Source: Fluviirhizobium alvei | Lineage (GTDB): Bacteria > Pseudomonadota > Alphaproteobacteria > Rhizobiales > Rhizobiaceae | Assembly (NCBI RefSeq): GCF_030551875.1 | Contig: NZ_JAUOZU010000005.1 | Location: 62,001 to 126,000, forward strand | Length of the DNA stretch: 64,000 nt | Reading direction: 5' to 3' | The notes under the pieces: model-generated | Seen by the model: the letters and a program-made list of their open reading frames with translations, nothing else | Databases searched by the model: none | What the model was told of the DNA's origin: nothing | Shown here: piece by piece, positions 23,706 through 42,749 of the stretch | How positions within the stretch are numbered: the stretch's first letter is position 1 | Layout: each line of letters starts with the position of its first letter | Made by a program: the position numbers and the translations under genes

Positions 23706-24563
23706 TCAGGCCGCCATCAGCGAGGTGCCGTAGGTCACGCCCTTTTCTTTGAGCCAGCGGCGATAGGCGATCGAGGAGGCATCGGCGCGGGTCGGGATCT
23801 CCGAGCGCGGCTCCATCGGCAGCAGCACCGGCCTCTGGTTTTCGAGGATGATGCGATCCTGCAGGAAGATGAGCTGCTGGAACTGGATGAGTTCGCTTGT
23901 CGTCGAGACATCGTCGATCAGATACATGACCGGATGCGCCCGGCAACGATCGGGATCGAGCGGCTGCACGAACAGGCAGATCACATCCCAGCGATTGGCC
24001 GAATTCGGGCAGGTCTTGTAGAGCAGCGTCGTGAACGGCGTCATCACCCGGTAGATATACTGCGTCATGATGCCTTCGGTGGCCGAGAGGGCTGCCTGCG
24101 GCTGGAAGAACTGGCAGTTGGTCGCCCAGACCTCATCGACATCGCGACGGATCTCGACATTGTAATGCTCGACCTCGGTATGCGGCTCGGAACCGAGAAT
24201 ATCGGTATGGACGAAGGGAAAATGCGCCATGTCGAGGAAATTCTCGATGATGCGCAGACCCGACGCCTTCACCGAAACCGCCCCGCACGGCACGTAGCGA
24301 CGATCGGATTCTTCGGTTTCCGGCACTGGGAAGATATCGCGCTCCGGCGTTCCGAGCGTTGTCCAGATGAAGCCGAACTTGCTCTTGATCGGCAGCGGCT
24401 CATCGCGCCCCTCCGCCTTGACTGTGATCAAGCCATCCTCGCTGCGGATCATCTCGAGATCGACGCCGAGCAAGCGGTTCGGCGAGGTTCCGACCGAAAT
24501 GGCCGCCTCGGTTTCGATGACATACCACTGGTCCAATGAGGCTCTGTCTGTCGCTTTGGTCAT
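23706..24563 (-). CDS. Rieske-less ring-hydroxylase/N-demethylase catalytic subunit A
   Basis: 285 residues, about 60-70 fewer than the related single-chain Rieske oxygenases. The catalytic domain is intact: ENFLDMAHFPFVH gives D111 (bridge to a Rieske His) with iron ligands H114 and H119, and D236 in LQDRIILENQ is the third ligand. No Cys-x-His...Cys-x2-His Rieske motif exists anywhere in it. The N-terminal LDQWYVIETEA strand and the PLPIKSKFGFIWTTLG strand that normally flank the cluster loops are retained. The ATG has AGGAG seven bases upstream. It resembles NdmC, the Rieske-less caffeine-pathway N7-demethylase. It must take electrons from another protein, most likely the Rieske protein at 33.4 kb. 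Likely an N-dealkylation of a purine. Confidence 0.8.
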   Translation of the reverse strand: MTKATDRASLDQWYVIETEAAISVGTSPNRLLGVDLEMIRSEDGLITVKAEGRDEPLPIKSKFGFIWTTLGTPERDIFPVPETEESDRRYVPCGAVSVKASGLRIIENFLDMAHFPFVHTDILGSEPHTEVEHYNVEIRRDVDEVWATNCQFFQPQAALSATEGIMTQYIYRVMTPFTTLLYKTCPNSANRWDVICLFVQPLDPDRCRAHPVMYLIDDVSTTSELIQFQQLIFLQDRIILENQRPVLLPMEPRSEIPTRADASSIAYRRWLKEKGVTYGTSLMAA

Positions 24564-24579
24564 ATCGAAACTCCTGGTC

Positions 24580-25980
24580 TCAAATGTTGTAAATACGGTC
24601 CATGACAGTCTGGTGCCTGTCAAGCAAGCCGCCGATATCGGCAGCGGTGAATTCGCCGCCGGCAATGACCTGGCGACCATTGATGAAGGAATGATCCACC
24701 TTGAAGGGGCCGCACATGACGAGCGCGGCAAGCGGATCGCGCGAGGTGCCGGAGAGCCCGAGCTGGCGCAGTTTGATCGCGATGAAATCGGCGCTCATCC
24801 CCGGCGCGAGATAGCCGATATCGTCGCGACCGAGGATCTTCGCGCCACCGCGCGTCGCCATCGTCAGTGCCTCGCGGGCCGAGAGAGCCGCCGGCGTGCC
24901 ACCGAAACCACCACGTCCGCCCGGTGTCTCGGAGAGATACTTGTTGGGCGCCACCCGCTGCAGCATCATGGCGAGGCGCGCTTCCATGAACATGTTGGAC
25001 GTATCGTTGGAGGCCGAGCCATCGACGCCCAGGCCGACCGGAACGCCCTCGTCGAGCATCTCGCGGATCTTGGCGATCCCCTGCCCGCAGCGCATGTTGG
25101 CCGACGGACAATGGGCGACGCCGGTGCCGGTCTGGGCAAAGAGGTCGATCTCTTCGCTGGTCATGAAGATCGAATGGGCAAACCAGACATCCGGCCCCAG
25201 CCAGCCGACGCTCTCGGCAAAACCGACCGAGCGCATCTTGTAGACATCGTGGCAGTAGATTTCCTCGAACAGGTCTTCGGCGAGATGCGAATGCAGATGC
25301 ACGCCCTTGTGGCTGCGCGCAAGCGATGCGGCATCCTTCATCAGCCCCGGCGTCACCGAAAAGGGCGAGCATGGCGCAAGAATGATCCGGCTCATCGAAT
25401 GGCGGGAATTGTCGTGATAGGTCGCAATCAACCGTTCGGCATCCTTGAGGATAGCCTCTTCCTTCTCGACGCAATTGTCTGGCGGCAGGCCGCCCTGGCT
25501 CTGACCACGCGACATCGCCCCGCGAGCGGCGTGAAAACGCAGGCCCATATCGTGAGCCGCATCGATCGTCGCATCGAGCGTGCAATTGTTCGGCAGGATG
25601 TAGAGATGGTCGGAACTCGTCGTGCAGCCCGAGGCCATCAGCTCGGCCATCGCCACGCGCGCGGAAATGCCGATCGCCTCGTCATCGAGATTGGACCAGA
25701 TCGGATAAAGCGTCTTCAGCCAGACCAGCAGTTCATCATCCTGCACCATCACCCGCGTCAGGTTCTGGTACATATGGTGGTGGATGTTGACCATGCCTGG
25801 CATGACGATATGACCGGAAAGATCGTGCACCTCGTCGGCCGTGACCCCGACGAAGTCCGCCATGGTGCCGACCTTTTCGATCACATTGTCACGGATGAGG
25901 ATCGCCCCGTCCTCAAGTTCGCGGCCCTCGTCATCGAAGGTCGCGAGATAGGCAATGTTCTTGAACAGTTTCGTTGTCAT
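24580..25980 (-). CDS. 8-oxoguanine deaminase-like amidohydrolase
   Basis: 466 residues. The metal motif PGMVNIHHHMYQNLTR, with the triple His and YQ-x-LTR, is characteristic of 8-oxoguanine deaminases and hydroxyatrazine ethylaminohydrolases. Others are HLHSHLAEDLFEE, FAHSIFMT, HCPSANMRCGQGIA and VDGSASNDTSNM. It probably converts 8-oxoguanine (or a substituted analogue) to urate plus an amine. It is in the leftward purine operon between the alpha/beta hydrolase and the oxygenase subunit. The C-terminal SGTSRDPLAALVMCGP matches the TRZ/ATZ family. Confidence 0.85.
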   Translation of the reverse strand: MTTKLFKNIAYLATFDDEGRELEDGAILIRDNVIEKVGTMADFVGVTADEVHDLSGHIVMPGMVNIHHHMYQNLTRVMVQDDELLVWLKTLYPIWSNLDDEAIGISARVAMAELMASGCTTSSDHLYILPNNCTLDATIDAAHDMGLRFHAARGAMSRGQSQGGLPPDNCVEKEEAILKDAERLIATYHDNSRHSMSRIILAPCSPFSVTPGLMKDAASLARSHKGVHLHSHLAEDLFEEIYCHDVYKMRSVGFAESVGWLGPDVWFAHSIFMTSEEIDLFAQTGTGVAHCPSANMRCGQGIAKIREMLDEGVPVGLGVDGSASNDTSNMFMEARLAMMLQRVAPNKYLSETPGGRGGFGGTPAALSAREALTMATRGGAKILGRDDIGYLAPGMSADFIAIKLRQLGLSGTSRDPLAALVMCGPFKVDHSFINGRQVIAGGEFTAADIGGLLDRHQTVMDRIYNI

Positions 25981-26025
25981 GTCAGTCTCGGATTGGCGGA
26001 AGGAAATGGCGGCGCAGACCGTTCA

Positions 26026-26781
26026 TCAGGCGGCCGCCTTCACATCTTGAACGAGGAATGGGATGAGCGCTTCTGCAAGCGCCTCGGGTGCGGAAAGCTG
26101 CGGAACATGGCCGGTCTCAAGCGTAACGTTGGCGGCACCCGGAACGAGCGCCTGCATGCGCCGCTGTTCGACAATGCCCACCGATCGATCAAGCGCTGCT
26201 TCGATATAGAGCCGTGGCAGCCGCCCGAACCGGGCGGGCGTCGGTTGGGCGGTGAGAGCAAAGCCCCCGAACGGCTGCGGCCGCAGCCGACCCACGGCAT
26301 CCTCGGCAACCTCCGGCGTGCAATCGTGATAGAAGATCGCGCGCGCCACATCGGCCTCCGCCCAGCAGGTCGACCGATCCGAAGACCAGAGAAGATGCGG
26401 GGTGATGCCGCCGATACCTCCCTCTGCCGCAACGCTGTCCTGCAAGGTCTTGAAGCCCATGCCAGCCGGCAGCATCATGCCGGCAATATAGGCGATCCGC
26501 GACACACGTTCGAAAAAGCGTTCGGCAACGGCGGTAGCCACCACGCCGCCGCCGGAATGGCCAACGACACTGACCTTGCCCTCGATCCCGTCGAGGATCT
26601 TGCCGATATGATCGAGATAGAGGTCGAGATCGACCGCATGAGCCGGCACGTCATCATAACCGATGCCCGGCAGATCGACGGCGATCGCTGTCAATCCACG
26701 GCTTTCCAGGAGGGGCACGAACCGTTTCCAGGTCCAGCTTCCCTGCCAGGCGCCATGAATGAGCAGCACCGGATCAGCCAT
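26026..26781 (-). CDS. Alpha/beta hydrolase
   Basis: 251 residues. The oxyanion motif is LLIHGAWQGSWTW, the nucleophile elbow VVGHSGGGVVA, and the catalytic His lies in TGHVPQLSAPEALAEAL. This matches the salicylic-acid-binding/MES-like esterase group. Its start overlaps the 3' end of the upstream 2OG-oxygenase gene by 8 bases. Its role could be hydrolysis of an ester or lactone formed from side-chain oxidation of a purine derivative; this is inference from the operon. Confidence 0.8.
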   Translation of the reverse strand: MADPVLLIHGAWQGSWTWKRFVPLLESRGLTAIAVDLPGIGYDDVPAHAVDLDLYLDHIGKILDGIEGKVSVVGHSGGGVVATAVAERFFERVSRIAYIAGMMLPAGMGFKTLQDSVAAEGGIGGITPHLLWSSDRSTCWAEADVARAIFYHDCTPEVAEDAVGRLRPQPFGGFALTAQPTPARFGRLPRLYIEAALDRSVGIVEQRRMQALVPGAANVTLETGHVPQLSAPEALAEALIPFLVQDVKAAA

Positions 26782-27754
26782 AGGTCTTGGCGAACATCTC
26801 CATGAGATGCCCTTCCGTGGTCGTCGGTGCGTATTTCGGCTCTTCGCCGGGCTTCAGGCAGGTCGGAATGCAGACGACCTCGTAATCCGGCGCGCCATCA
26901 TAGAAGAAGGGCACCGAATAGCGTTCGCGACCGGAGGCATTGACGACCCTGTGCAGGGTCGATTTGTAGAGATCATTGGTCCAGCGGGCCATCGCATCGC
27001 CGAGATTGACGACGAAGGTTCCGGGGATCGGATCGGCATGGATCCAGCTGCCGTCATTCTTGTCGAACACCTGCAGGCCGCCGACATCGTCCTGCATCAG
27101 AAGCGTGATCGCACCCCAGTCGGTATGGGCACCGGCGCCCTTCTCGTTCTTCGGCGCATCCGGCCGCTGCGGCGGATAATGCAGAAGACGAAGCGTCGAG
27201 AGCGGTTCGACCTGATAGCCGTCGAAATAGTCTTCCGAAAGATCGAGCGACAGGGCAATGGCCTGCATCAGCCGGTCGCCGAGCTCCTGCATCGCCGCAA
27301 AATAGGCGAGCATTGTGGGGCGGAAGCCAGGCAGATCCTGCGGCCAGACATTGGGGCCGCGGTTGAAGCGGCCGGCGCGCACCATCGGATGATCCTCACG
27401 CATTTCGAGGCCGATATAGTAGCCTTCCTTGCGATCGGGCGGCGCTCCGGCCTCGAGCGTCTGGCCACCCAGCACCTCATAGCCGCGATTGCACTTGGAT
27501 TTCTTCGATTTCTCGAGATCCATCTTGGCTTCGGATGGCAGCGCGAACAGCTTGCGCGTCTCGGCAAAGACGGCATCCATCAACCCCTGCGGAATGCCAT
27601 GGCCGGCACAGTAGAAGAAGCCGTTGCCGATGCAGGCTTCCCGCAGGGCCCTGGCGACGGCGAGCCTGTCCTCCGGATTGGATGAGGTCAGACCACTCAC
27701 ATCCACGACCGGAAGCGTCGCCTGATCCACGCGTCGAGCAAGGTTGGATTCCAT
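26774..27754 (-). CDS. 2-oxoglutarate/Fe(II) oxygenase, isopenicillin-N-synthase-like
   Basis: 326 residues from the Met with GGAGGA upstream. The N-terminal DIOX_N domain begins LPVVDVSGL. The C-terminal double-stranded helix has HTDWGAITLL (iron ligands His and Asp), STLHRVVN (second His) and RYSVPFF (2OG-binding Arg-x-Ser). Such enzymes hydroxylate methyl groups; fungal thymine-7-hydroxylase belongs to this family. In this purine operon it may oxidise an N- or C-alkyl group or a nucleobase ring. The substrate is not predictable by motif. Confidence 0.85.
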   Translation of the reverse strand: MESNLARRVDQATLPVVDVSGLTSSNPEDRLAVARALREACIGNGFFYCAGHGIPQGLMDAVFAETRKLFALPSEAKMDLEKSKKSKCNRGYEVLGGQTLEAGAPPDRKEGYYIGLEMREDHPMVRAGRFNRGPNVWPQDLPGFRPTMLAYFAAMQELGDRLMQAIALSLDLSEDYFDGYQVEPLSTLRLLHYPPQRPDAPKNEKGAGAHTDWGAITLLMQDDVGGLQVFDKNDGSWIHADPIPGTFVVNLGDAMARWTNDLYKSTLHRVVNASGRERYSVPFFYDGAPDYEVVCIPTCLKPGEEPKYAPTTTEGHLMEMFAKTYG

Positions 27755-27804
27755 GCGTCTGTCCTCCGGCCGGTCTGGCGGTTGAAGCGAAGGCAACACC
27801 CGCC

Positions 27805-28740
27805 TTAGCGGATGTTACGGAAATAGGGTTCTCCGAGTGCTGCCGGTGCAGCCATCAGCCGCTTCATCCGCTGCCAGGCAATGACCGGCACGATGATGAA
27901 GGCGATGGTGCCGAGATAGGGCAGCATCGACAGGAAGGCCGGTGCGATCGGCCAGCCGCGCGCCTGACCGACGAAGCCGAGCGCGGTAATGAAGCCGAAG
28001 AGCAGACCGGAGAGAGCAGCCGGAATGGGCCGGTAGCCGGCAAAGATGACCAGCGCGACGGCAATCCAGCCGCGACCGGCGACAACGCCATCCGACCAGG
28101 CCGGTACGAAGGCGAGCACCAGATAGGCACCGGCACCGGCAGCCAGGGCAGAACCGGCGGCAACATAACCGAACCGGATCAGCCCGACCGGAATACCGGC
28201 CGCATCCGCCGCTGCCGGATTTTCACCGACCGCGCGCAGGTTGAGGCCATGCCGGGTGCGGAACATGATGTAGGAGAGCCCGATCGGCAGGATGATATAG
28301 ATGAGATAGACCAGAATGTTCTGGCTGAAGAAGGCCTTGCCGAACACCGGGATCGACGACAGAACCGGCACGACGATGCCTTCGAAGGTCGCCGGCACCG
28401 GCATGCCCGAATAGGCCTTGCCGATGGTCTGGGCGAGACCCGTTCCCATCAGCGTCAGCGCCAGACCGCAAAGAACCTGGTTGGCGCGCAGCGTCACGGT
28501 CGCAAAAGCAAACAGCGAACCGATAAGGCCACCGACCAGCAGGGCGGCCAGAAAGCCGATGATCGGATGGGGCGTGGCGGTGACGGTGGCGACTGCGGTG
28601 ATGGCCCCCATCGCCATCAGCCCCTCGGCGCCAAGATTGACGACGCCGACGCGCTCGGCCAGCACTTCGCCGATGGCGGCAAGCGCCAGAACGCCGCCTG
28701 CCAGAAATGCCGTGGTGAAAAGACCGGTCAGGAGTTCCAT
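27805..28740 (-). CDS. BMP-type ABC transporter permease (second)
   Basis: 311 residues, about eight to ten membrane segments. It contains AERVGVVNLGAEGLMAMGA, the typical motif of the nucleoside/purine permease of the BMP family (NupQ/YufQ-like), and GLNLRAVGENPAAADAAGI, the cytoplasmic coupling loop. The ATG has GAGAGGAAA upstream; an earlier in-frame Met overlaps the upstream permease. With the adjacent permease and ATPase it forms the inner-membrane channel of a purine or nucleoside importer. Confidence 0.88.
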   Translation of the reverse strand: MELLTGLFTTAFLAGGVLALAAIGEVLAERVGVVNLGAEGLMAMGAITAVATVTATPHPIIGFLAALLVGGLIGSLFAFATVTLRANQVLCGLALTLMGTGLAQTIGKAYSGMPVPATFEGIVVPVLSSIPVFGKAFFSQNILVYLIYIILPIGLSYIMFRTRHGLNLRAVGENPAAADAAGIPVGLIRFGYVAAGSALAAGAGAYLVLAFVPAWSDGVVAGRGWIAVALVIFAGYRPIPAALSGLLFGFITALGFVGQARGWPIAPAFLSMLPYLGTIAFIIVPVIAWQRMKRLMAAPAALGEPYFRNIR

Positions 28741-28753
28741 GGTCCGTTTCCTC

Positions 28754-29803
28754 TCAGGTCTTGTCGCGGATGATGCGATAGTGCGACAGTTCATCGCCGA
28801 TCGCGGTCAGGAACAGGATCAGGCCGGTGATGGCCAGAACCGCAGAAGTGGTCAGCCCCTGCGTCTGCAGGATGATCCCGGAATTCAGAATGAACGCCAT
28901 CAGGGCACCGGCGAAGATGACACCGAGCGAGGAGCCACGCGCCAGCACCGCCACCATGATGCCGAGATAGCCGTAGCTGTTGGAAATGCCGCCCTGCAGA
29001 CGATGCACGGTGCCGGCAATTTCCAGCATGCCGGCAATGCCGGCAATGCCGCCGGACATCAGCATGACGGTGATGAGATGCCGACGAGCCGCGATGCCGG
29101 CATATTTGCCGGCCGAAGCGTTGGAGCCGATCAGGCGGACTTCGTAACCCCACTTCGTGAAACTGAGGACCAGCGCCATACCGATCGCCATGATCACCGC
29201 AATCGGCAGTCCCCAGTGAACGAGACCCCAGAATTCCGGCATTTCGGCGGGAATGCGGGCGGTCGCCGAATTGGCGACACCGCCGCGTTCGCGCCAGGCA
29301 TCGGTCGAGACATAGAAAACCAGCAGGATCGCGACGAAGTTCAGAAGCAGCGTCGTGATCAGTTCGTTGACATTGGCATAGGCACGCGCCAGCGTCGGCA
29401 CCAGTATCCAGACCATGCCGCCGATCGCACCGGCGATGAACATGAAGACGAGGCTCCAGGCTTCCGGCAGCGGCACGAACAGGCCGACCGCGGTGGCGGC
29501 AAAGGCGCCAGCGTAGAACTGGCCTTCGGCCCCGATGTTCCAGGCGCCGATCTGCTGGGCAACTGTTACAGATAGGCCGGTCAAGATCAGCGGGATGATC
29601 AGGAGCCCCAGATCTTCCATGCCGAAGGTGGAACCGAGCGAGGCTGTGACGACCTGCAGACCGAGATCGATCGGATTGTTGCCGGTAAAGGCGAGAATGA
29701 TGCCAGCAATCACGAGTGCCAATGCAATGGCGAGAATGCGGGCGGCGAGCGCCATGCCGGGATTGGCAGAGGGAAGCCGTTGCAGACGGAAATTAGCGGC
29801 CAT
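28754..29803 (-). CDS. BMP-type ABC transporter permease (first)
   Basis: 349 residues. The chosen ATG lies after GGAGGTGCAGCCC; a Met six codons earlier would include that ribosome site. The motif VAQQIGAWNIGAEGQFYAGA and the loop EVRLIGSNASAGKYAGI are hallmarks of NupP/YufP-like permeases. The start overlaps the ATPase 3' end by 11 bases. It pairs with the second permease for purine or nucleoside uptake. Confidence 0.88.
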   Translation of the reverse strand: MAANFRLQRLPSANPGMALAARILAIALALVIAGIILAFTGNNPIDLGLQVVTASLGSTFGMEDLGLLIIPLILTGLSVTVAQQIGAWNIGAEGQFYAGAFAATAVGLFVPLPEAWSLVFMFIAGAIGGMVWILVPTLARAYANVNELITTLLLNFVAILLVFYVSTDAWRERGGVANSATARIPAEMPEFWGLVHWGLPIAVIMAIGMALVLSFTKWGYEVRLIGSNASAGKYAGIAARRHLITVMLMSGGIAGIAGMLEIAGTVHRLQGGISNSYGYLGIMVAVLARGSSLGVIFAGALMAFILNSGIILQTQGLTTSAVLAITGLILFLTAIGDELSHYRIIRDKT

Positions 29804-31376
29804 GGGCTGCACCTCCGGCATGACCCTTGCCGCCCATCATCAGGCCGATTTCCTCGATATCGACATTGTCGTTCTGAACGACACCCATGATACTTCCTTC
29901 ATAAAGCACGGCGATGCGATCGGAGAGATTGAGCAGTTCCTCGAGCTCTTCCGAAATCAGCACGATGCCGGCACCGGCATTCCTGAGTTCGACGATGTAA
30001 CGCAGCATGGTGTTGATGGCGCCGACATCGAGGCCGCGGCTGGGATAGGCCGCGACGAGGATCTTGTTGGCGACCCGCATTTCGCGGCGCGCCACCAGAC
30101 GCTGCTGGTTGCCACCCGACAGGTTGCGGATCGGCATGCCGAAATCCGGGATCGCGACTTCCGCCACCGAGGCGATTTCGCGCGCCAGCGTTCCGGCAGC
30201 ACCCGGCTTGTAGATGCCGCCCACCGTTACCGGCGGCTTGCGATATTCCCGCATCACAGCGTTGACGGTGATTGAAAGGCCCGGCGCGAGACCGGAATGC
30301 AGCCGGTCTTCCGGAATATGGCCGATGCCGCGATCGACAAACTCGGCGGCATTCGCCCGCGTGACCTTTTCGCCATCGATGCGGATTTCACCCGACGAAA
30401 TCGATCGCGTGCCAGTGAGGATCTGGCTGAGTTCCCGCTGACCATTGCCGGCCACCCCGGCGATGCCGAGAATTTCGCCGGCACGGACATCGAGCGAGAT
30501 CCCGTGCAGGGCCTTGTCGCCACTGTCTTTGAGCGCGATGACATTCTTGAGGCTCATCACCGGCTTTTCGGAGATAGGGGCGGCGCCTTCCGGGCGTCCG
30601 CGCATATCGGCAAGCACGATATCGCGCCCCACCATCATGCGGGCCAGCTTGGCGGGCGTGCAATCGGATGCAAATTCGGTCGCGATCTTGCGCCCGCCGC
30701 GCAGGATCGAGATGCGATCCGAGATTTCGAGAACTTCGTCGAGCTTGTGCGATATGAAGATCACCGCATTGCCGGTCGAGACGAACTCCCGCAAGGCCTT
30801 GAACAGTTCGCGCGCCTCGGCCGGCGTCAGGACTGCCGTCGGCTCGTCGAGAATGAGGACTTTCGCCTCGCGGGCGAGAACGCGGAGAATTTCGACACGC
30901 TGCTGCTCGCCGGTCGACAGTTCGGTGATGCGGGCAGCCGGCCGGACCTGGAGATTGAACTTGCTTGCGAGGGCGGCCGTGCGCGCTTCGAGAATGGCGG
31001 CAGAGGCGCGGCGCGGCGTTTCCTTCCAGCCGAGATGGATGTTTTCGGCCACCGTGAAGGCATTCACCAGCTTGAAGTGCTGGTGCACCATGCCGATACC
31101 GGCGGCAATCGCCTGTTGCGGCGAGGCAAATTCGCGCCCATAGCCCTCAATGATGATCTCGCCGCCGTCCGGCTGGTAGATGCCGGTCAGAATGTTCATC
31201 AGCGTCGATTTTCCGGCGCCGTTTTCGCCGAGAAGCGCATGGATCTCGCCAGGCATGACATCGAGATCGACATCCTCGTTGGCGATCACGCCGGGGAAAT
31301 ATTTGGCGATCCCCTTGAGTTGCACGAGTGGTGCGGTGCCGGGTGGCGCCACGTATTTCTCTGGATGTTCGGTCAT
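29793..31376 (-). CDS. BMP-type ABC transporter ATPase (two nucleotide-binding domains)
   Basis: 527 residues with two ABC domains. Domain 1: P-loop GENGAGKST, signature LSTGEQQ, Walker B LILDEPTAVLT. Domain 2: degenerate P-loop GVAGNGQRE, signature LSGGNQQR, Walker-B region LVAAYPSRGLDVG lacking the usual DEPT. This asymmetry is normal for NupO/RbsA-like fused ATPases. The ATG at 31376 is three codons into a frame beginning with GTG. It energises purine or nucleoside import. Confidence 0.9.
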   Translation of the reverse strand: MTEHPEKYVAPPGTAPLVQLKGIAKYFPGVIANEDVDLDVMPGEIHALLGENGAGKSTLMNILTGIYQPDGGEIIIEGYGREFASPQQAIAAGIGMVHQHFKLVNAFTVAENIHLGWKETPRRASAAILEARTAALASKFNLQVRPAARITELSTGEQQRVEILRVLAREAKVLILDEPTAVLTPAEARELFKALREFVSTGNAVIFISHKLDEVLEISDRISILRGGRKIATEFASDCTPAKLARMMVGRDIVLADMRGRPEGAAPISEKPVMSLKNVIALKDSGDKALHGISLDVRAGEILGIAGVAGNGQRELSQILTGTRSISSGEIRIDGEKVTRANAAEFVDRGIGHIPEDRLHSGLAPGLSITVNAVMREYRKPPVTVGGIYKPGAAGTLAREIASVAEVAIPDFGMPIRNLSGGNQQRLVARREMRVANKILVAAYPSRGLDVGAINTMLRYIVELRNAGAGIVLISEELEELLNLSDRIAVLYEGSIMGVVQNDNVDIEEIGLMMGGKGHAGGAAHGR

Positions 31377-31446
31377 TCGGAGCACCGGCTGGAAAAGGAA
31401 AGGCAGGGAGGACGGGCCGAAACGGCCCGTCCAGGATGGCGATGGA

Positions 31447-32562
31447 TCAGAGGCCGGTGACGCCTTCGATCGACCAATCCCAGTTGTAGAGTTCGAGCTC
31501 GGTCATCTGCTGGCCCTTGGCAACCTTGACATTGCCCTTGGAGTCCTTGAGTTCGCCGACGAACGGCGACCAGCCACCGAGGATCTTGTCGCGAACGGCA
31601 TCGGCTGCCTTGCCGACTTCTGCCGGGACCTTCTCGCCCCAGGCATCGCGATCGACGCCGGCGCCCATCGAGAAAAGAGCGGTTTCCGGCGTCCAGGTGC
31701 CGGCGAGACGCTTGCCGACCTGCTCGACATAGTACTTCTTGAAGTCGATAATGATCGAGGAGACGTACGAGTTCGGGCCATAGCGACGGATGTCGGTGTT
31801 CCACATGGCAGCCCAGACGCCGCGCTTTTCAGCAACCTGCAGATAGGCGGCTTCGTCCATGATGCCGAACAGGAAGTCGCAGCCATTGTCGATGAGTGCG
31901 GTGCCAGCCTGGGCAGCGGCCTGCGGATCGAACCAGGAATTGATCGCGATCGTCTGGCAGGTCGCGTTCGGATTGACGGTGCGCGCACCCATCAGGAAGG
32001 CGTTGGTCGAAGCATAGACCGAAGCAACCGGGAAGGAAGCGACATAGCCGAGCTTGCCGGTCTTAGACAGCATGCCGGCGGCAACGCCGACAACGTAGGT
32101 CGGATACCAATGGGCCAGATAGTACCAGCCGAGATTGTCCATGGTGATGTGGCCGTTGCATTCCATGAAGGCCACTTCCGGCGCCCGCTTGACGACTTCA
32201 TGCAGGAAGTCACCGGTCGAGGACGTGTCGAAGATCATGTTGGCACCTTCGCTGACGAACTGGCGATAGGTACGCGTCGCATCGGCAGAGTAAGGAACGT
32301 TCTCGACCTCAAGCACCTTCTTGAGCTTCGGGAAGGCTTCCTTGACGGCGAGCACGCCCTGATGGTGGCTCCAGGTCCAGCCTTCATCGGTGACCGGGCC
32401 GACATGGCCGAAACCGATCACGGCATCTTCTTCCTTGACAGCAGCAAGGGGAGAGGCCGCAAAGGCCGGACGGATGAGACCCGACGGCAGCACGGAAGCA
32501 GCCGCACCGGCTGCGGCCATGTTGAGAAAGCCGCGACGGGAAAGATTACGCAAGTCGATCAT
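31447..32562 (-). CDS. BMP family ABC transporter substrate-binding lipoprotein-like protein
   Basis: 371 residues. The N-terminus LRNLSRRGFLNMAAAGAA is a twin-arginine signal, so the protein probably folds before export. The mature part has BMP/Med-like features: VIGFGHVGPVTDEGWTWSHHQG, FDTSSTGDFLHEV, GVAAGMLSKTGKLGYVASF and NSWFDPQAA. Relatives bind purine nucleosides or bases. The ribosome site is AGAAGGGG. It is the first gene of the leftward operon, immediately downstream of the control region with three CGAAACACCG copies. Confidence 0.9.
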   Translation of the reverse strand: MIDLRNLSRRGFLNMAAAGAAASVLPSGLIRPAFAASPLAAVKEEDAVIGFGHVGPVTDEGWTWSHHQGVLAVKEAFPKLKKVLEVENVPYSADATRTYRQFVSEGANMIFDTSSTGDFLHEVVKRAPEVAFMECNGHITMDNLGWYYLAHWYPTYVVGVAAGMLSKTGKLGYVASFPVASVYASTNAFLMGARTVNPNATCQTIAINSWFDPQAAAQAGTALIDNGCDFLFGIMDEAAYLQVAEKRGVWAAMWNTDIRRYGPNSYVSSIIIDFKKYYVEQVGKRLAGTWTPETALFSMGAGVDRDAWGEKVPAEVGKAADAVRDKILGGWSPFVGELKDSKGNVKVAKGQQMTELELYNWDWSIEGVTGL

Positions 32563-34092: not shown

Positions 34093-34724
34093 TGAGCACG
34101 CTGACCCTTTACAACTACGACCTCGACGACAGCTGCTATCGCGTCCGGCTGCTGCTCTCCATGCTCGACAAGGACTATACCGCCTTTACCGTCGACATGG
34201 TTCCAGGCAACGAACATCTGAGCCCGACGATGCTGGCGAAGAACCCGACCGGCATTCTGCCGACGCTGGAAGATGGCGACCTGACGCTCTACGGGCCGGA
34301 AGCCGTTCTCGCCTATCTCGCCAAAGCCTATGATCCCGCCGGCACCTGGCTGCCTTCGGATGCGGCCGGTTTTGCCGCCGTCATGCAATGGCTGAACTTT
34401 TCCGCAAGCCTGCTGACCGCCGCCTCCGAGGCGCGCAAGGTGGCGCTCTTCGGCCTTCCGGGTGACCTTGAAAGCCTGAAGGCATCCGCAAAAAGCGCTT
34501 TCCGGATCATGGACGATCATATGATCCTGCGCCAGATCGACGGGCTCGAATGGTTGGCCGGCACCGGCCCGACGCTCGCCGACATCACGCTCTTCCCGAT
34601 TTTTGCGCTCAGCCGCGATTTCGGCATCGATCACGACGAGTTCCCGGCCCTGCGTCGCTGGATCCGCCGTTTCCGCGCCCTGGCAGGTTTCAAGACCATG
34701 CCCGGCATTCCTGATTATCACTGA
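34089..34724 (+). CDS. Glutathione-S-transferase-like protein (NdmE-like context)
   Basis: 211 residues; the first of two adjacent ATGs overlaps the Rieske stop. The N-terminal thioredoxin-like domain (LYNYDLDDSCYRVRLLLSMLDKDYTAFTVD, then NPTGILPTLEDGDLTLYGPEAVLAYLA with the cis-Pro and E-[AS] glutathione motif) precedes an all-helical C-terminal domain ending TLADITLFPIFALSRDFG. In the caffeine pathway the GST-like NdmE is needed to form the NdmC-NdmD complex. The same gene pairing here suggests a scaffold role in a Rieske/oxygenase assembly. A true glutathione-dependent reaction cannot be excluded. Confidence 0.8.
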   Translation: MMSTLTLYNYDLDDSCYRVRLLLSMLDKDYTAFTVDMVPGNEHLSPTMLAKNPTGILPTLEDGDLTLYGPEAVLAYLAKAYDPAGTWLPSDAAGFAAVMQWLNFSASLLTAASEARKVALFGLPGDLESLKASAKSAFRIMDDHMILRQIDGLEWLAGTGPTLADITLFPIFALSRDFGIDHDEFPALRRWIRRFRALAGFKTMPGIPDYH

Positions 34725-34736: not shown

Positions 34737-36536
34737 ATGTCGAAAATCACCCGTTTTTCCGTAGCGCCACTCGCCAGTATGACGCGCCGGATGGCCGACG
34801 TCGCTTCCGGCCGCGCCACCCCCGACCTGGTCATCGGCGGCGCCCGCGTGCTGTCGACCTATTCCGAACGCATCCTTGCCGATCGCGAGATCTGGATTGC
34901 CGGTGGCCGCATTGCCGCCGTCAAGCCGGCCGGCACCCACAAGGGCGGAGCCAGATTCTACGATGCCAAAGGCGGCATCATCGCGCCGGGGCTTGTCGAT
35001 CCGCACATTCATATCGAATCGAGCATGGTGACGGCCTGCGCCTATGCCGAGGCGGCACTTCTGAACGGCACCACCACGATTTTCTGCGACAGCCACGAGA
35101 TCGGCAATGTCATGGATGTCGCCGGTGTCGAAGCGATGCTGGAAGATGCCCGCCACGCACCGCTGTCGATCTTCCTCACCGTGCCGTCGACGGTGCCGGC
35201 CACCTCTCCCGAACTCGAAACCGCCGGTGGCGACCTGACGCCCGACAAGATCGCCGCCCTGTTCGACAAATGGCCCGAAGCCGTCGCTCTTGGCGAAAAG
35301 ATGGATTTCGTACCGGTAACGATGGGCGATGAGCGTAGCCATGCGATCCTCGCGGCAGCCCTTTCGCGCGGCAAGCCGGTTTGCGGCCATGTCTATGGCC
35401 GCGAATTTGTCGCCGCCTATGCGGCGGCCGGTGTCAGCGATACCCATGAGGCGATCGACCGCGACATTGCTGACGACATGCTTGAAGCCGGCATCTGGCT
35501 GTTCCTGCGCGGCGGACCGCCGACGACGCCCTGGCATTCGCTGCCGGAAGCAATCAAGACGGTGACCGAACTCGGCGCATCCCACAAGCGCATCGCCGTC
35601 TGCACCGACGACCGCGATGCCGACGATCTGCTTGCCTTCGGCATGGACTGGGTCGTGCGCGAGGCCGTCAAGGCCGGCATGACCAAGGAACAGGCCTGGT
35701 CGATGGGGTCGCTGCATGGCGCGACCCGCTTCGGCAAGGAAGGCGAAGTCGGCGGCCTGGGTGGCGGACGGCGCGCCGATCTCGTGCTGCTCTCGGACAA
35801 TCTCGAGCCGATCAGCACCTGGTATGGCGGCGAACTGATGGTCGACCAGAAGAAGATCACGCCGCTGCTCGACGAATGCCTCACCGATCTCTGGCGCTAT
35901 CCTGAGGCCGCCTACCATACGGTCAAGCTGCCGAAGGAACTGAAGCTGACACCGGAACTGCCGACCACGACCGTGGTGGCCAACACCATCCGCACCGAAC
36001 TGCCCGGCATCATTCTCGGCCACGAGAAGATCACGCTGGAACCGGCCAACGATTGGCAGACCCATTTCGATCGTCATGGTCTCTGCTTCGTCACCGTCAT
36101 CGAGCGTCACGGCAAGTCGGCCGGCAATGTCGCCCATGCGCTCCTGTCGAACTTCGCGCTGAAGAGCGGCGCTGTCGCCTCCTCCGTCGGCCATGACAGC
36201 CACAACATCATCATTGCCGGCACCAACGAAGCCGACATGCAGGTCGCATTGCGGGCGATCGAGGCTAATCAGGGTGGCGTCTGCGTGGTGCAGGATGGCA
36301 AGGTTACCGCCATGGTGCCGCTGCCGATCGCAGGCCTCCTGTCCGACAAGCGCGTCCATGTGGTGGCCGAAGAGGTGCAGAAGCTGAAGGTGGAATGGGA
36401 AAAGGCCGGTTGCACTATCCCCTACATGGGCTTCAACCTCATCCCGCTCTCCGTCATTCCGGAAATCCGCATCACCGACAAGGGGCTTGTGACCGTGCCG
36501 CAGATGGAGATCGTGCCGCCTTTCGAGGCGGCCTGA
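34737..36536 (+). CDS. ade: Adenine deaminase
   Basis: 599 residues, the usual length of Ade-type deaminases. The metal motif is [16 protein letters not shown], followed by [34 protein letters not shown] and the C-terminal [19 protein letters not shown] characteristic of this family. It converts adenine to hypoxanthine using a binuclear metal centre. It is in the rightward purine operon after the GST-like gene. Bacteria with this family and guanine deaminase feed both bases to hypoxanthine/xanthine oxidation, and the Mo hydroxylase downstream can take over. Confidence 0.9.
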
Positions 36537-36551: not shown

Positions 36552-37484
36552 ATGGATCCCTTCCGGCTCGGCCTCGTCGCCACCCGCATCCACTATTTCC
36601 AGCTGGTGGCGCGGCTGGGCTCGATCCGGCAGGCGGCGCTTGCCCTCAATGTCGCGCCCTCCTCCGTCAGCCGCATCCTGCGGCAGCTGGAGGAGGAACT
36701 CGGCACGCCCCTGTTCGAACGGGTGCGCCAGCGGCTGAAACTCACGAGCGCGGGCGAGTTGATGCTCTATCATGCCCGCGCCAGCCTGACCGAACTCAAC
36801 CGCGCCTGCAACGAAATCAACGATCTGCATGGCCTGCATCGCGGCACCATGTCGATCGCCATCGTTGAAAGCGTCGCCCGCGGCCTGATGCCGTCAGCAC
36901 TCGAATCCTTCTGGACCCGTCATCCCGCAATCACGGTCGACATCAAGGTCATGGGCTCGCAACAGGCCGCCAATGCGGTGGCCGAAGGCGAATGCGACCT
37001 GGCGCTGGTGTTCGACGTGCGGGTGCCGCGCACCATCCGCCGCATCGCCCAGGCCTTCCTGCCGCTCGGGGTTCTCGCGCTGCCCGACAGTCCGATGGCG
37101 GGCCGCAGCGAATTGAAACTGTTCGATCTCGCCAACGAACGGGTGATCCTGTCCGATTCGTCGCTGATGCTCGGCACCTCGGTCGAGGATGCCTTCAACC
37201 GCTCCTTCATCGATCTCGCCCGCCGCTCGCGCACCAACTCGATCGGACTGATGGTCGACATGGCCAAGCGCAATCTCGGGACCGTGTTGCAGACGCGGGT
37301 CGGTGTCGAACAGGAACTCGCCGAAGGCACCCTCAAATTCATACCGTTGCGCGACGCGCGCCTTGCACCGCGCAAGCTGATGCTGCTCTCGCGTTCGGAG
37401 AAGGAAATGTCGGATGCCGCATCCGCAATGGGCCGTCTGCTGGAGCAGGCAGTCGATCGTCTGGCCGCGGAACCCGCTGTCTGA
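36552..37484 (+). CDS. LysR family regulator of the purine cluster
   Basis: 310 residues. The N-terminal helix-turn-helix is IHYFQLVARLGSIRQAALALNVAPSSVSRILRQLEEELGTPLFERV; a LysR effector-binding domain follows with GTMSIAIVES and GECDLALVFDV. It is embedded in the rightward operon, 15 bases after adenine deaminase, so it is probably the local regulator. It may act on the divergent control region, although its own sites have not been shown. The inducer could be a purine or a degradation product. Confidence 0.88.
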   Translation: MDPFRLGLVATRIHYFQLVARLGSIRQAALALNVAPSSVSRILRQLEEELGTPLFERVRQRLKLTSAGELMLYHARASLTELNRACNEINDLHGLHRGTMSIAIVESVARGLMPSALESFWTRHPAITVDIKVMGSQQAANAVAEGECDLALVFDVRVPRTIRRIAQAFLPLGVLALPDSPMAGRSELKLFDLANERVILSDSSLMLGTSVEDAFNRSFIDLARRSRTNSIGLMVDMAKRNLGTVLQTRVGVEQELAEGTLKFIPLRDARLAPRKLMLLSRSEKEMSDAASAMGRLLEQAVDRLAAEPAV

Positions 37485-37535
37485 GTTGTTGTCTTCAAAA
37501 CAACAACATCATCGAAAAATGCCGTCTATTCGGCA
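37485..37535. promoter_or_regulatory. Two small dyads before the TPP-decarboxylase genes
   Basis: GTTGTTGT (37485-37492) and ACAACAAC (37500-37507) form an 8-base inverted repeat directly after the LysR stop. TGCCG-TCTATT-CGGCA (37520-37535) follows. They lie in the 93-base gap before the TPP alpha-subunit gene. They may be a LysR operator with an internal promoter, or weak attenuating hairpins. There is no run of T after either. Confidence 0.35.
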
Positions 37536-37577
37536 CAACTCGCTTTTGCCAGATTGGGGTCGAACAGAGGGTCCAGC

Positions 37578-38078
37578 ATGAAACAATCTTCCGTCGACGC
37601 GGTCATCCGCGGCCTCAAGAAAGCAGGGGTGAGCGTCGTCTGCTACCTGCCCGATTCGCTTTTCAAGGAGCTTTATCCGGCCCTTGATGCCGATCCGGAC
37701 ATCCGCACCATCCGCGTGACCAATGAGGGCGAAGGGGCTGCCATCTGCGGCGGCGTGTTCCTGTCCGGCAAGCGGGCAGCACTCGTGATGGAGAATTCCG
37801 GCCTGCGCGCCTCGGTCGAGCCGCTTGCGCGCATGGGGCTTGGTGCCGGCATCCCGGTCGTCATGCTGATGAGCTATCGCGGCGAACTCGGCGAGAACAA
37901 CTGGTGGGCCATTCCGCATGGCATCACCATGGAACCGGTGCTGAATGCGTTGCGCATCCCCTATCGCGTCGTGCGCGAGGAAGAGGCAATCGAACAGTCG
38001 ATCGTCGATGCCTACAACTGGTCCTACAACGCCTATTATCACTCGGCCATCGCGCTGGGCGGGAGCATCGTCCGATGA
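37578..38078 (+). CDS. Sulfopyruvate/phosphonopyruvate decarboxylase-type TPP subunit alpha
   Basis: 166 residues with AGAGGG seven bases before the ATG. It corresponds to the pyrimidine-binding domain of TPP decarboxylases. VCYLPDSLFKELYPALD opens it, VTNEGEGAAICGGVFLSGKRAALVMENSGL carries the activating Glu, and MSYRGELGENNWW matches the ComD/phosphonopyruvate decarboxylase alpha type. It overlaps the beta subunit gene by four bases. Together they would decarboxylate a 2-oxo acid to an aldehyde. The substrate is unknown; the downstream aldehyde dehydrogenase could accept the product. Confidence 0.82.
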   Translation: MKQSSVDAVIRGLKKAGVSVVCYLPDSLFKELYPALDADPDIRTIRVTNEGEGAAICGGVFLSGKRAALVMENSGLRASVEPLARMGLGAGIPVVMLMSYRGELGENNWWAIPHGITMEPVLNALRIPYRVVREEEAIEQSIVDAYNWSYNAYYHSAIALGGSIVR

Positions 38079-38683
38079 AACGCTATGACTGCATGAAACT
38101 GCTCGCCGACCGGCTCAAGGACGAACTGGTGATCCTGTCGCTCGGCGCCTCCGTGGACGAATGGTACAACGCCGCCCCGCATATGCGTGAGGCCAGCCTG
38201 TTCCAGCAACAGCTCGGCTGTGTTACCCCCCAGGCCTTCGGTCTGGCAGCCGGGCTTCCCCATCGCCGCATCATCTCGCTCGATACCGATGGCGGCATGA
38301 TGTTCAACCTCGGCATTCTGGCCACCCTCGGCAACGAACAGCCCAAGAACCTGTTTGTCGTTGTCTGGGACAATGAATGCTACCAGTCGATCGGCGGACC
38401 GCCGACGCATACGGCCTTCGGTCGCGTCGATATTGCCGCCATCGCCCGCGGCGCCGGCGTCGACAATGCCTATACCGCCCGCACGCTCGAGGAATTCGAA
38501 GCCCATTGCGAGGCCGGATTGAAGGCCGACGTTCCCTATATCGTCGTCGCCAAGGTGGCTGGCACCGTTCAGCCCGACATCAAGCGCAAGCATTCGGACG
38601 GACGCGAGGACAAGTACATCTTCGTCCGCCATGTCGAGGCCACCGAAGGCATCGTCATCATGGGTCCGAGCGAGCATAATTGA
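38075..38683 (+). CDS. Sulfopyruvate/phosphonopyruvate decarboxylase-type TPP subunit beta
   Basis: 202 residues, matching the PP-binding domain. FQQQLGCVTPQAFGLAAGLPHRRIISLDTDGGMMFNLG contains the Mg/TPP motif (DTDGG...), ending with VVWDNECYQSIGG. Its start overlaps the alpha-subunit stop. Separate alpha and beta chains are typical of ComDE-like enzymes. No sulfonate or phosphonate gene is nearby, so the natural substrate is probably a different 3-carbon or 2-carbon oxo acid. Confidence 0.82.
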   Translation: MKRYDCMKLLADRLKDELVILSLGASVDEWYNAAPHMREASLFQQQLGCVTPQAFGLAAGLPHRRIISLDTDGGMMFNLGILATLGNEQPKNLFVVVWDNECYQSIGGPPTHTAFGRVDIAAIARGAGVDNAYTARTLEEFEAHCEAGLKADVPYIVVAKVAGTVQPDIKRKHSDGREDKYIFVRHVEATEGIVIMGPSEHN

Positions 38684-38722
38684 GGGAAATGATGGGCCTC
38701 CTTTGGACGTCTGCGGGAAATA

Positions 38723-38859: not shown

Positions 38860-38888
38860 TCTTCGCCCGGAATGCTGAAAGGTCGACC

Positions 38889-40454: not shown

Positions 40455-40479
40455 CCGCCACCGACCCGAGGACCGACCG

Positions 40480-41889
40480 ATGACTGGAGAAACAATGGAC
40501 AAGACCGGAATGATCCTCGCAGGCGAAAGCCTCCTGACCATGGATGCCGAAAACAGCGTCATCCGCAACGGCGCCGTCGCAATCCTGGACGGACGCATCA
40601 TGGGCGTCGGCACGCTTGAGGCGATGAAGGCAGCCTTCCCGGCCTATAGCCTCAAACACCTGGCCAACACGGTGCTGATGCCGGGCCTCATCAATGCGCA
40701 TGCCCATTCCGGCTTTCTGCGTGGTACGGCCGAACATCTTCCGGTCTGGGACTGGCTGACCATCCACATCAACCCCATGCACCGGGTGCTCGAACCGCAT
40801 GAGGCGGAAGCCGCCTCCTGGCTTTGCTATGCGGAATCGGCGCTCTCCGGCACCACCACCGTGGTCGACATGTGGCGCTACATGGATGGCAGCGCCCGTG
40901 CCGCAGAAGCGATCGGCACCCGGCTTCTGGCTGTTCCCTATGTCGGGGAACATCCCGACTACAACTATTTCGACACGCTCGACATGAACGAGGCGATGAT
41001 CGAAACCTGGCACCGCAAGGCCAATGGCCGCATCAATGTCTGGGTCGGGCTCGAACATCTCTTCTATTCCGACGAGGCCGGACAGCAGCGCGCGATCGAG
41101 ATGGCCAAGCGCCACAAGGTCGGTTTTCACACCCATTGTTCGGAGGCCGAGGTCGAGGTTGGCGGCTTCATCGAGGCCTATGGCAAGCGGCCGATGTATG
41201 TGCTAGAAGATCTCGGCTTCTTCGAAGCGCCGCAGACGATGCTGGCGCATGCCGTCTGGCTCGAACCTGCCGAGATCGAGCTGATCTCGAAATACAGGGT
41301 CTCGGTGGCGCACAACCCCGTCTCCAACATGAAGCTCGCCTCCGGCATCGCACCGATCGCCGACATGCTGGCCGCTGGCATTCCGGTCGGGCTCGGCACC
41401 GATGGCGAGAAGGAAAACAACAATTTCGACATGTTCGAGGAGATGAAGGCCGCCTCGCTGCTCGGCAAGTTGCATCATCGCGATGCCGCTGCGATGGACA
41501 GCTGGCAAAGCCTGCGCATGGCGACCATCCTCGGCGCCAAGGCCATCGGGCTCGATCACGAGATCGGTTCGATCGAAGTCGGCAAACGGGCGGATATCAT
41601 CGCGGTCCGCAGCGATACGCCGCGCATGACGCCCTTCTTCCCGGATGGACCCTATTTCAACCTGCAGCACAATCTGGTCCATGCCGTACGCGGCAGTGAT
41701 GTCGCCATGACGATGGTCGATGGCAAGATCATCGTCGAGGACGGACAGCTCAAGACCGGCGATCTCAAAGCCATCATTGCGGATATTCACGCCATGGCGC
41801 CCGCCCATTTTGCCCGTCGCGCTCGTTGGCTGGCGGAAAACGGCGGCGGCACCAAGAACTGGATTAGCGAAAAAGGAACGGCGGAATGA
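40480..41889 (+). CDS. Amidohydrolase (SAH/MTA-type deaminase), second
   Basis: 469 residues from the ATG at 40480; the ATG at 40495 with GGAGA upstream is an equally good start. Metal motifs PGLINAHAHSGFLRG, HTHCSEAEVEVG, LAHAVWLEP, VAHNPVSNMKLASGIAP and VGLGTDGEKENNNFDMF are those of the chlorohydrolase/MTA-SAH deaminase group. Its stop overlaps the start of the second Rieske-less oxygenase subunit. It is the fifth deaminase-type enzyme of the cluster, so probably specific for a substituted purine or an open-ring product. Confidence 0.82.
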   Translation: MTGETMDKTGMILAGESLLTMDAENSVIRNGAVAILDGRIMGVGTLEAMKAAFPAYSLKHLANTVLMPGLINAHAHSGFLRGTAEHLPVWDWLTIHINPMHRVLEPHEAEAASWLCYAESALSGTTTVVDMWRYMDGSARAAEAIGTRLLAVPYVGEHPDYNYFDTLDMNEAMIETWHRKANGRINVWVGLEHLFYSDEAGQQRAIEMAKRHKVGFHTHCSEAEVEVGGFIEAYGKRPMYVLEDLGFFEAPQTMLAHAVWLEPAEIELISKYRVSVAHNPVSNMKLASGIAPIADMLAAGIPVGLGTDGEKENNNFDMFEEMKAASLLGKLHHRDAAAMDSWQSLRMATILGAKAIGLDHEIGSIEVGKRADIIAVRSDTPRMTPFFPDGPYFNLQHNLVHAVRGSDVAMTMVDGKIIVEDGQLKTGDLKAIIADIHAMAPAHFARRARWLAENGGGTKNWISEKGTAE

Positions 41890-42749
41890 AGACGACAGAT
41901 CAGGTCGCGCTTAACGACTGGTACGCGATCGCGACCGCAAGCGAGGTGACCTCCAAACCGTTGAGAACGAAGCTGCTCGGCCAGGCAATCGAATATGCGC
42001 TCGGCGAAGGCGGCGAACCGATGGTGCGCGAAGTGCTGGACGATGGCTTTGGACCGCCGCTGCCGGTGAAGGTCCGCTATGGCTGTCTCTTCACCACGCT
42101 TGGGACGCCGACCAAGGATATCGTCCATATCGAGGAGGCAGAAGAGGACGATCGCCGCTTCGTGCTTTGCGGCTGGGTGACGATGCGCGCTTCCGGCCTC
42201 AGGGTGGTCGAGAACTTCCTCGACATGGCGCATTTCCCCTTCGTCCACACAAACATCCTCGGCGCCGAACCGCATACCGAAGTGCCCTCCTATCTCAGCG
42301 AAATCCGCCGTGATGTCGATGAAGTCTGGGCCACCAACTGCACCTTCTTCCAGTCGCGCATTGCCGCCACCGAAAGCGCCGGCGATTTTGTCCATCTCAC
42401 CTATCGCGTTCCCTCACCCTATGTGGTGATGCTCTACCGCGTCTGCCCCACCTCGCCGAACCGGCTCGATGCGATCGCACTCTTCATCCAGCCGATGGAG
42501 GAAGGACTCTGCCGGGCCCAGCCGGTGATGTATCTGGTCGACAGCGTCTCCTCCCACAAGGCGCTCCTGAACTTCGAACAGGTGATCTTCCTGCAGGACC
42601 GCATCATCGTCGAAAACCAGCGCCCGCTGCTCTTGCCACTCGAGCCGAGGGCGGAAATTCCGACGCGAGCCGACTCCTCCTCCATCGCCTATCGTCGCTG
42701 GATCAAGGAAAAGGGCCTGCGCTACGGCACCACCGCCGGAGGACATTGA
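41886..42749 (+). CDS. Rieske-less ring-hydroxylase/N-demethylase catalytic subunit B
   Basis: 287 residues, a clear paralogue of the subunit encoded at 23.7-24.6 kb. It keeps ENFLDMAHFPFVH (D113, iron ligands H116 and H121) and D238 in LQDRIIVENQR. The two share EIRRDVDEVWATNC and RAEIPTRADSSSIAYRRWIKEKG-like tails. It lacks the Rieske Cys-x-His/Cys-x2-His motif but retains the DWYAIATASEV and PLPVKVRYGCLFTTLG strands that flank it in normal enzymes. It is translationally coupled to the amidohydrolase before and the Mo hydroxylase after. It needs an external Rieske donor. Confidence 0.8.
   Translation: MKTTDQVALNDWYAIATASEVTSKPLRTKLLGQAIEYALGEGGEPMVREVLDDGFGPPLPVKVRYGCLFTTLGTPTKDIVHIEEAEEDDRRFVLCGWVTMRASGLRVVENFLDMAHFPFVHTNILGAEPHTEVPSYLSEIRRDVDEVWATNCTFFQSRIAATESAGDFVHLTYRVPSPYVVMLYRVCPTSPNRLDAIALFIQPMEEGLCRAQPVMYLVDSVSSHKALLNFEQVIFLQDRIIVENQRPLLLPLEPRAEIPTRADSSSIAYRRWIKEKGLRYGTTAGGH

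Follow-up and report, generated by a model that had tools for sequence, protein, structure and literature searches.

Genes of a putative split oxygenase

A 64,000-nucleotide stretch of DNA from Fluviirhizobium alvei (contig NZ_JAUOZU010000005.1, positions 62,001 to 126,000; hereafter the window) carries genes for what is probably a Rieske oxygenase (RO) divided among several proteins. In the ring of an ordinary RO, every chain combines a Rieske domain with an iron domain, and electrons are passed from one chain to another. A conserved aspartate bridges the Rieske cluster and the iron. In the window, the Rieske cluster lies on one protein (R) and the mononuclear-iron site on two others (A and B), which belong to a family that we call Rieske-less (RL) catalytic chains. 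R is followed by a gene for a glutathione S-transferase (GST)-like protein (E) and preceded by one for a small acylphosphatase-like protein (AcpL). The closest known parallel is NdmCDE of Pseudomonas putida CBB5. A first-pass annotation, made from the sequence alone, had proposed the same three-part logic here: an RL chain, a separate Rieske donor and a GST-like partner. The four reading frames on which it drew are all present where it placed them; AcpL it had missed. The genes, in window positions, are:

23706-24563 (-): A, RL catalytic chain of an RO, 285 amino acids; VanA_C (E 2e-22), no Rieske family; iron ligands invariant; member of the RL clade
33093-33356 (+): AcpL, acylphosphatase-like, 87 amino acids, start at 33093 or 33099; PF00708 below cut-off (E 0.018)
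33382-34092 (+): R, stand-alone Rieske protein with an apparently vestigial catalytic domain, 236 amino acids; PF00355 (E 3e-23, residues 7-90)
34089-34724 (+): E, GST-like, NdmE-like by position; GST_N/GST_C; start overlaps the stop of R (ATGA)
41886-42749 (+): B, second RL catalytic chain of an RO, 287 amino acids; VanA_C (E 7e-15), no Rieske family

A and B are 56% identical. The motif DxxHxxxxH is present in 45 of 45 RL proteins, and D113-x2-H116-x4-H121 together with D238 (B numbering) is invariant in their alignment, which includes A and B; the Rieske motif CxH..CxxH occurs in none of the 45. In Pfam, A additionally matches KshA_C, at its cut-off, and NCBIfam gave no match for A or B at E 0.001. 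Pfam and the alignment thus agree with the first-pass description of A and B as paralogues that keep the mononuclear-iron site and have no Rieske motif. Retention of D113, H116, H121 and D238 sets A and B apart from the beta subunits of alpha3beta3 enzymes, which have no metal site; nor does either chain, or R, carry both metal sites as an ordinary alpha3 RO does. The closest named relatives of the window by gene B, among the matches listed, are records of Rhizobium and other Rhizobiaceae.

What remains of the missing half can be seen in predicted structures. A single-chain model of B (pLDDT 90.4) matches SxtT with a TMq of 0.89, more than the 0.74 that could at best come from the catalytic part alone (some 212 of its 287 residues). 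The strands of its first 70 or so residues superpose in the model on a Rieske domain from which the cluster loops are absent. B looks like a dead Rieske base joined to a live catalytic domain.

R appears to be the converse. It is the sole Pfam Rieske match in the window, and none of C48, H50, C67 and H70 varies across 65 R proteins, among them that of the window. These four ligands had been correctly assigned in the first-pass annotation, which took R to be a Rieske domain and nothing more; a vestigial RO catalytic domain appears to follow. The single-chain model of R (pLDDT 94.6) reaches a TMq of 0.72-0.77 to chains of SxtT and GxtA, where the Rieske part (about 115 of 236 residues) could give at most 0.49. 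Because that part is only about half of R, such values require some of the tail to superpose on the catalytic domain of an RO. HxxxxH is found in none of the 65 tails, and most matches of the RL profile within R proteins cover the Rieske base and leave out the tail. R looks like a live Rieske domain followed by a dead catalytic one, a reading that rests mainly on the predicted fold, and on these models R and A/B look like complementary relics of RO chains.

E is encoded directly after R, as the first-pass annotation had it, and matches GST_N and GST_C. An E-like protein accompanies R in 82 of the 83 loci that hold R within the stretch fetched. At 236 amino acids R lacks reductase domains and so is not an NdmD, in which the Rieske domain is fused to an NADH reductase.

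Co-occurrence of the RL and Rieske genes

If R serves A and B, the two families should be found together. We searched a sample of 247 Rhizobiaceae genomes, with B as the query for RL genes and a profile of R of which whole-length matches were counted, and a sample of 398 genomes from the phylum; of the 15 RL-positive genomes in the latter, six are in both samples. One of the 94 RL matches in Rhizobiaceae (G089:C272:24098, 52.8 bits) is a full-length RO and was excluded, leaving 93 for the counts. The RL family occurs in 58 of the 247 genomes, and R, either stand-alone or fused as in NdmD, occurs in the same 58 and in none of the other 189. Stand-alone R was found in 42 (213.5-298.5 bits) and fused R, in a frame of 582-853 amino acids, in 19 (148.5-174.3 bits), with both in three; the next match to the profile is a full-length RO at 99 bits. 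The phylum sample gave the same result. RL genes, scoring at least 316 bits, occur in 15 of 398 genomes, nine further genomes having full-length ROs only (210 bits at most). Bit score alone fails to separate R from full-length ROs in this sample (best full-length RO, 148.7; lowest fused R, 147.4), and R was recognized by a match reaching profile position 214 or beyond; such matches occur in the same 15 genomes and no others.

Since the genome sets coincide in both samples, the co-occurrence is not due to chance. The first-pass annotation had named a failure of the two families to co-occur elsewhere as grounds for abandoning its idea; with 58 of 58 and 15 of 15, the idea survives. The genes are also close together: no more than 20 kb separates R from 92 of the 93 RL genes, and the remaining one (G207:C1:1072645) is 400 kb away. 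The gene counts support the idea that a single R works with two catalytic chains. Among the 58 genomes, 25 have one RL gene and one stand-alone R, 14 have two RL genes and one stand-alone R, and 14 have two RL genes and one fused R; five show other combinations.

A contig scan with the RL query returned at least 80 loci, whose titles point to Rhizobiales, Rhodobacterales, Acetobacteraceae, Rhodospirillales and Rhodococcus. In 100 loci (L042-L141), R lies within the fetched stretch of 83, stand-alone in 77 and fused in six; many of the 17 without it are B loci whose stretch ends before R. Some genomes are included twice in L042-L061 and L062-L141, so not all locus counts are independent. Two contigs titled Rhodococcus (L082 and L086) carry B-type genes, L082 with R and E too. 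This suggests transfer between phyla, although the origin label of L086 conflicts with its title. In a metagenome-assembled genome of Xanthobacteraceae (L116, 246-3913), two divergent RL genes flank E and R, one of them on a very long branch.

AcpL accompanies stand-alone R

The profile of AcpL matches acylphosphatases in the PDB (E 1.6e-5). The catalytic residues of acylphosphatases are an arginine and an asparagine. Likeness to the family (PF00708) ends there: AcpL falls below the Pfam cut-off and, in an alignment to 1ulr_A, both positions are replaced, so that it does not qualify as an acylphosphatase. We scored a profile match of at least 64 bits as presence (the next-best match reached 42.7 bits). 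AcpL is then present in 41 of the 42 Rhizobiaceae genomes with stand-alone R, in none of the 16 with fused R only and in none of the 189 without the system. At the level of loci, the profile found a match in 76 of 126 searched and in 67 of the 78 with stand-alone R; it found none in ten fused loci and a single chance-level match (8.7 bits) in five loci of full-length ROs.

We propose AcpL as a fifth component, one that goes only with stand-alone R; our guess is that it may help in assembly or docking. There is a substantial chance, somewhat short of even, that this small protein lies outside the oxygenase and instead acts in regulation, or as an accessory to transport, within the same gene group. 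Such a role would suit the four loci with the gene order R-RL-E-reductase, where AcpL comes after the transporter genes and not beside R, and L047/L118 and L120, where it lies on the strand opposite to R. In most other loci, however, AcpL immediately precedes R in the same orientation, and it is confined to genomes with stand-alone R even though the fused loci that we read also have BMP transporters.

Phylogeny of the two halves

In a quick tree, with some long branches and 35 of 141 rows unlabelled, the RL proteins group together, apart from full-length ROs, in a single clade (SH-aLRT 98). Within it, the fused-type loci (support 81) are separated from those of the split type (74). An NdmC-like protein (L173) lies within the fused subclade (support 81; NdmC of CBB5 itself is absent from the tree). 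The cluster that encodes it, on a P. putida plasmid, also holds S-(hydroxymethyl)glutathione dehydrogenase and fghA.

A tree of R, rooted on the full-length ROs of L193-L197 and made after mislabelled or long rows (L129_29, L129_1, L116_8 and L126_8) and later L191_13 were dropped, places the 12 fused rows in one clade (100/97). Its sister is a stand-alone R (L190) on a long branch; once the L190 row is removed, the split rows take its place as sister of the fused clade. These sequences suggest that the NdmD-type fusion arose once, and the place of L190 gives only a hint that the fusion came later. We considered L190 as a fusion in the reverse order and rejected it: Pfam finds only a Rieske domain, and the N-terminal part probably comes from a reading frame that was drawn too long.

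The full-length ROs of L193-L197, from another class of the same phylum, score best with both the R and the RL profiles and are thus the best full-length relatives of both halves. They resemble the window in their neighbours, a BMP transporter adjoining in five of five loci and a deaminase-like gene in four of five. They differ in that they are not split and that no NdmE-like protein was found in their stretches.

Electron supply

In four genomes (L177-L180) the gene order is R, RL, E, reductase and then an ABC transporter, and NdmD-type loci join R to the same reductase family. Together these four-gene operons and the fusions support a route from reductase to R to iron. L177-L180 also have a divergent LysR-like gene and, at the far end, an acylphosphatase-like gene; the RL frame of L180 is short (189 amino acids). 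On plasmid pPp1290 of P. putida 1290 (L174, 9862-12272), an NdmD-like region is annotated as three pieces (Rieske, reductase and [2Fe-2S]), either a broken gene or a true split.

A dedicated reductase was looked for near the oxygenase genes of the window and none was found. Elsewhere in the 5.2 Mb source genome, the reductase half of NdmD matches two places at a threshold of E 1e-5, each adjoining a longer Rieske protein, one of 349 amino acids that also has VanA_C and one of 413. Two genomes of the same genus (L181 and L182) have reductases about 15 kb from A, with no counterpart in the window.

Gene neighbourhood and substrate

The other genes around the oxygenase are:

20955-22316 (-): guanine deaminase; TIGR02967 over cut-off
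22362-23702 (-): TRZ/ATZ-type amidohydrolase; below equivalog cut-offs
24580-25980 (-): 8-oxoguanine deaminase-type amidohydrolase; PRK08203 over cut-off
26026-26781 (-): alpha/beta hydrolase; Pfam
26774-27799 (-): 2-oxoglutarate (2OG)-Fe(II) oxygenase; PF03171/PF14226
27805-31385 (-): ABC permeases (27805-28794 and 28754-29821) and ATPase (29793-31385); from the frames and from relatives recurring beside oxygenase genes
31447-32583 (-): BMP-type solute-binding protein, start chosen by hand; closest solved relatives 6pi5 and 3s99
34737-36536 (+): adenine-deaminase-like amidohydrolase; PF13382, TIGR01178 below cut-off
36552-37484 (+): LysR-type regulator; below cut-offs
37572-38683 (+): two-subunit thiamine pyrophosphate (TPP) decarboxylase-like pair, starts chosen by hand; TIGR03845, TIGR03846 and TIGR03297 below cut-offs; PF02776, PF02775
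38886-40454 (+): GMC oxidoreductase, start chosen by hand; PF00732/PF05199
40480-41889 (+): TRZ/ATZ-type amidohydrolase adjoining B, start chosen by hand; below equivalog cut-offs
42746-46389 (+): xanthine-dehydrogenase-like FAD/Mo fusion (42746-45901) and [2Fe-2S] subunit (45838-46389); TIGR03196 and TIGR03198 below cut-offs
46386-47903 (+): aldehyde dehydrogenase, start chosen by hand; PF00171

Strand and spacing divide these genes into two groups. A lies on the minus strand with the transporter genes, in a group made up of the BMP binding protein, the ATPase, two permeases, the 2OG oxygenase, the alpha/beta hydrolase, the 8-oxoguanine deaminase, A, an amidohydrolase and guanine deaminase. 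R, E and B are on the plus strand, where the group comprises AcpL, R, E, the adenine-deaminase-like protein, the LysR regulator, the TPP pair, the GMC oxidoreductase, an amidohydrolase, B, the xanthine-dehydrogenase-like subunits and the aldehyde dehydrogenase. Rfam gave no match in 17000-48500.

Our best guess, from this neighbourhood and from the known substrate of NdmC (7-methylxanthine), is that the substrate is an N-substituted purine. As a hypothesis only, A might act on N7-methylguanine; the TPP, GMC and aldehyde dehydrogenase genes next to B might indicate that its substrate bears a longer substituent. A search of the open-access literature on cytokinin and methylguanine gave nothing relevant among the matches listed. 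Genes for 2OG-Fe(II) oxygenases are also found in NdmCDE-type clusters (L174, L176 and L192) and in other loci (L076, L082, L086, L089 and L090), and the enzyme possibly provides a second route of demethylation. The TPP pair resembles sulfopyruvate and phosphonopyruvate decarboxylases and recurs beside B-type genes. Of the solved relatives of the binding protein, 6pi5 is an atrazine periplasmic binding protein.

A model for the putative split oxygenase and its alternatives

Gene content, motifs, co-occurrence, phylogeny and the single-chain models make it likely, in our judgement, that R, E, A and B, with AcpL, constitute a split RO of the NdmCDE kind. Co-occurrence, adjacency and the tie to the NdmC-like protein lend strong support to the three-part logic first proposed for these genes. 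In the model that we favour, two jobs would be divided over chains derived from an RO, R keeping the Rieske cluster and A and B the iron site. R would dock at the position of a neighbouring RO chain and hand electrons through the bridging aspartate (D113 in B) to the iron in either A or B. R itself would be reduced by a reductase whose gene lies elsewhere. E would hold the complex together, as proposed for NdmE, and AcpL may serve as an assembly or docking subunit specific to stand-alone R. A and B would oxidize substituents, probably N-methyl or other N-alkyl groups, on two different imported purines, and the deaminases and the xanthine-dehydrogenase-like enzyme would then process the products.

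A wider proposal, for which we see the chances as even, is that these genes represent an RO family composed of two half-dead paralogues, R on one side and A/B on the other. One donor would be common to two catalytic chains of different specificity, and the system would need both a GST-like protein and an acylphosphatase-like protein without catalytic residues. NdmD would be a later fusion of R with a reductase, itself still holding a vestigial oxygenase chain.

Several observations weigh against the split-oxygenase model or parts of it. The tail of R aligns only weakly with the catalytic domain in hhalign (probability 17%, E 0.0015, against E 0.08-0.71 for one reversed and five shuffled controls). 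One RL gene (L061, 9616-10500) has its own BMP transporter and neither R nor E in its stretch, the fused R of that genome being 400 kb off. AcpL was not found in 11 of the 78 stand-alone-R loci, nor in the cluster of G011. The reductase half of NdmD has no match in the 64-kb window. At E 1e-25, it has one in 23 of the 39 genomes with only stand-alone R, compared with 84 of the 189 without the system; the 16 of 39 that lack a match rule out an NdmD-class reductase as the obligatory genome-wide partner. Finally, matches to ndmC and ndmD without ndmE are reported from Acinetobacter isolates in the available part of one study (PMC8055839), so E may not always be needed.

Could the genes encode a split oxygenase with a different reaction, for example one that hydroxylates the ring of a purine or pterin, or else a longer side chain that the GMC, TPP and aldehyde dehydrogenase enzymes would handle? 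We think this improbable, though it deserves more weight than the two alternatives that follow. These three enzymes are not needed for the removal of a methyl group alone, and the closest solved relatives are SxtT and SxtDIOX/GxtA, presumably the pair of the paper cited next. Its subject, in the part available, is divergent C-H hydroxylation by two Rieske oxygenases (PMC7293229). The RL chains, however, are tied phylogenetically to an NdmC-like protein, NdmC is described as an N7-demethylase (PMC4408171, accessible part), and deaminases and a purine-type binding protein are encoded nearby.

A and B might also be two different, mutually dependent subunits of one larger complex and not alternative partners of R. 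The 14 genomes with two RL genes and one fused R, and the tandem pair in the loci that we read, would fit such a complex. Yet we regard it as unlikely: 25 of the 58 genomes make do with one RL gene and one stand-alone R, A accompanies R and E without B in L042, L043 and L044, one S. meliloti plasmid has a single RL gene with an R of fused length, and the window has A and B on opposite strands, each among neighbours of its own. Least probable by far is a reading in which A and B are remnants without activity, or else serve as ordinary beta subunits to a complete RO whose genes lie elsewhere, with R an unrelated ferredoxin. The genome does have other Rieske proteins, one with a VanA_C domain. 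This alternative is very hard to square with the invariance of the iron ligands and D113 in 45 RL proteins, with a window devoid of any further Rieske match, and with the finding that RL and R co-occur in every case at genome level in both samples (247 and 398 genomes, partly overlapping).

Comparison with known systems

Ordinary ROs offer the best solved match to both halves of the system, in SxtT and SxtDIOX/GxtA; there, unlike in the window, both metal centres are on one chain. According to the available part of a 2025 review, structurally characterized ROs are C3-symmetric oligomers in which electrons pass between subunits (PMC12445004). With the metal sites on separate paralogous chains, this inter-chain transfer becomes directly testable, each site being variable alone. 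The structure of the NdmCDE complex was still called unsolved in 2026 (PMC13237722, part available). The split system suggests an evolutionary origin for that odd complex and names an unrecognized candidate partner, AcpL. As the RL family is present in 58 of the 247 Rhizobiaceae genomes sampled, it is likely to play a widespread part in how these bacteria use modified purines.

The system most like that of the window is NdmCDE itself, the N7-demethylase of CBB5 whose NdmC acts on 7-methylxanthine (PMC4408171, from the part available). Both have an RL catalytic chain, here with a 2-His-1-Asp site, a GST-like partner encoded alongside, a Rieske domain on another polypeptide and a purine context, and an NdmC-like plasmid protein (L173) belongs to the same RL clade as A and B. 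They differ in that the Rieske chain of NdmD is fused to a reductase, whereas R is separate, with no such reductase in the window; that R would be common to two catalytic genes; and that a gene for AcpL, not found in ten fused loci, has been added.

The first-pass annotation knew of no description of this arrangement. That holds for the stand-alone form: among the matches listed from the open-access literature, judged largely from titles and the starts of abstracts, we found neither a stand-alone Rieske partner nor an acylphosphatase-like one described. It does not hold for the kind, as ndmCDE homologues in Sinorhizobium and Mesorhizobium, reported by Summers and co-workers, are already recorded in the accessible part of a review (PMC4408171). 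These are likewise rhizobial and, on two S. meliloti plasmids, have a BMP-type transporter beside the oxygenase genes. One plasmid has two RL genes; the LMB1 plasmid (L200, 5001-8355) has one, before a Rieske gene of fused length and a GST gene. Their Rieske protein, unlike R, has 588 amino acids, a fused form as judged by length, with the domains seen in a close relative (L055), and the window's type is the sister group. The NdmCDE kind of oxygenase is thus already known, in rhizobia too, and the form with a stand-alone R is a new sister variant of it.

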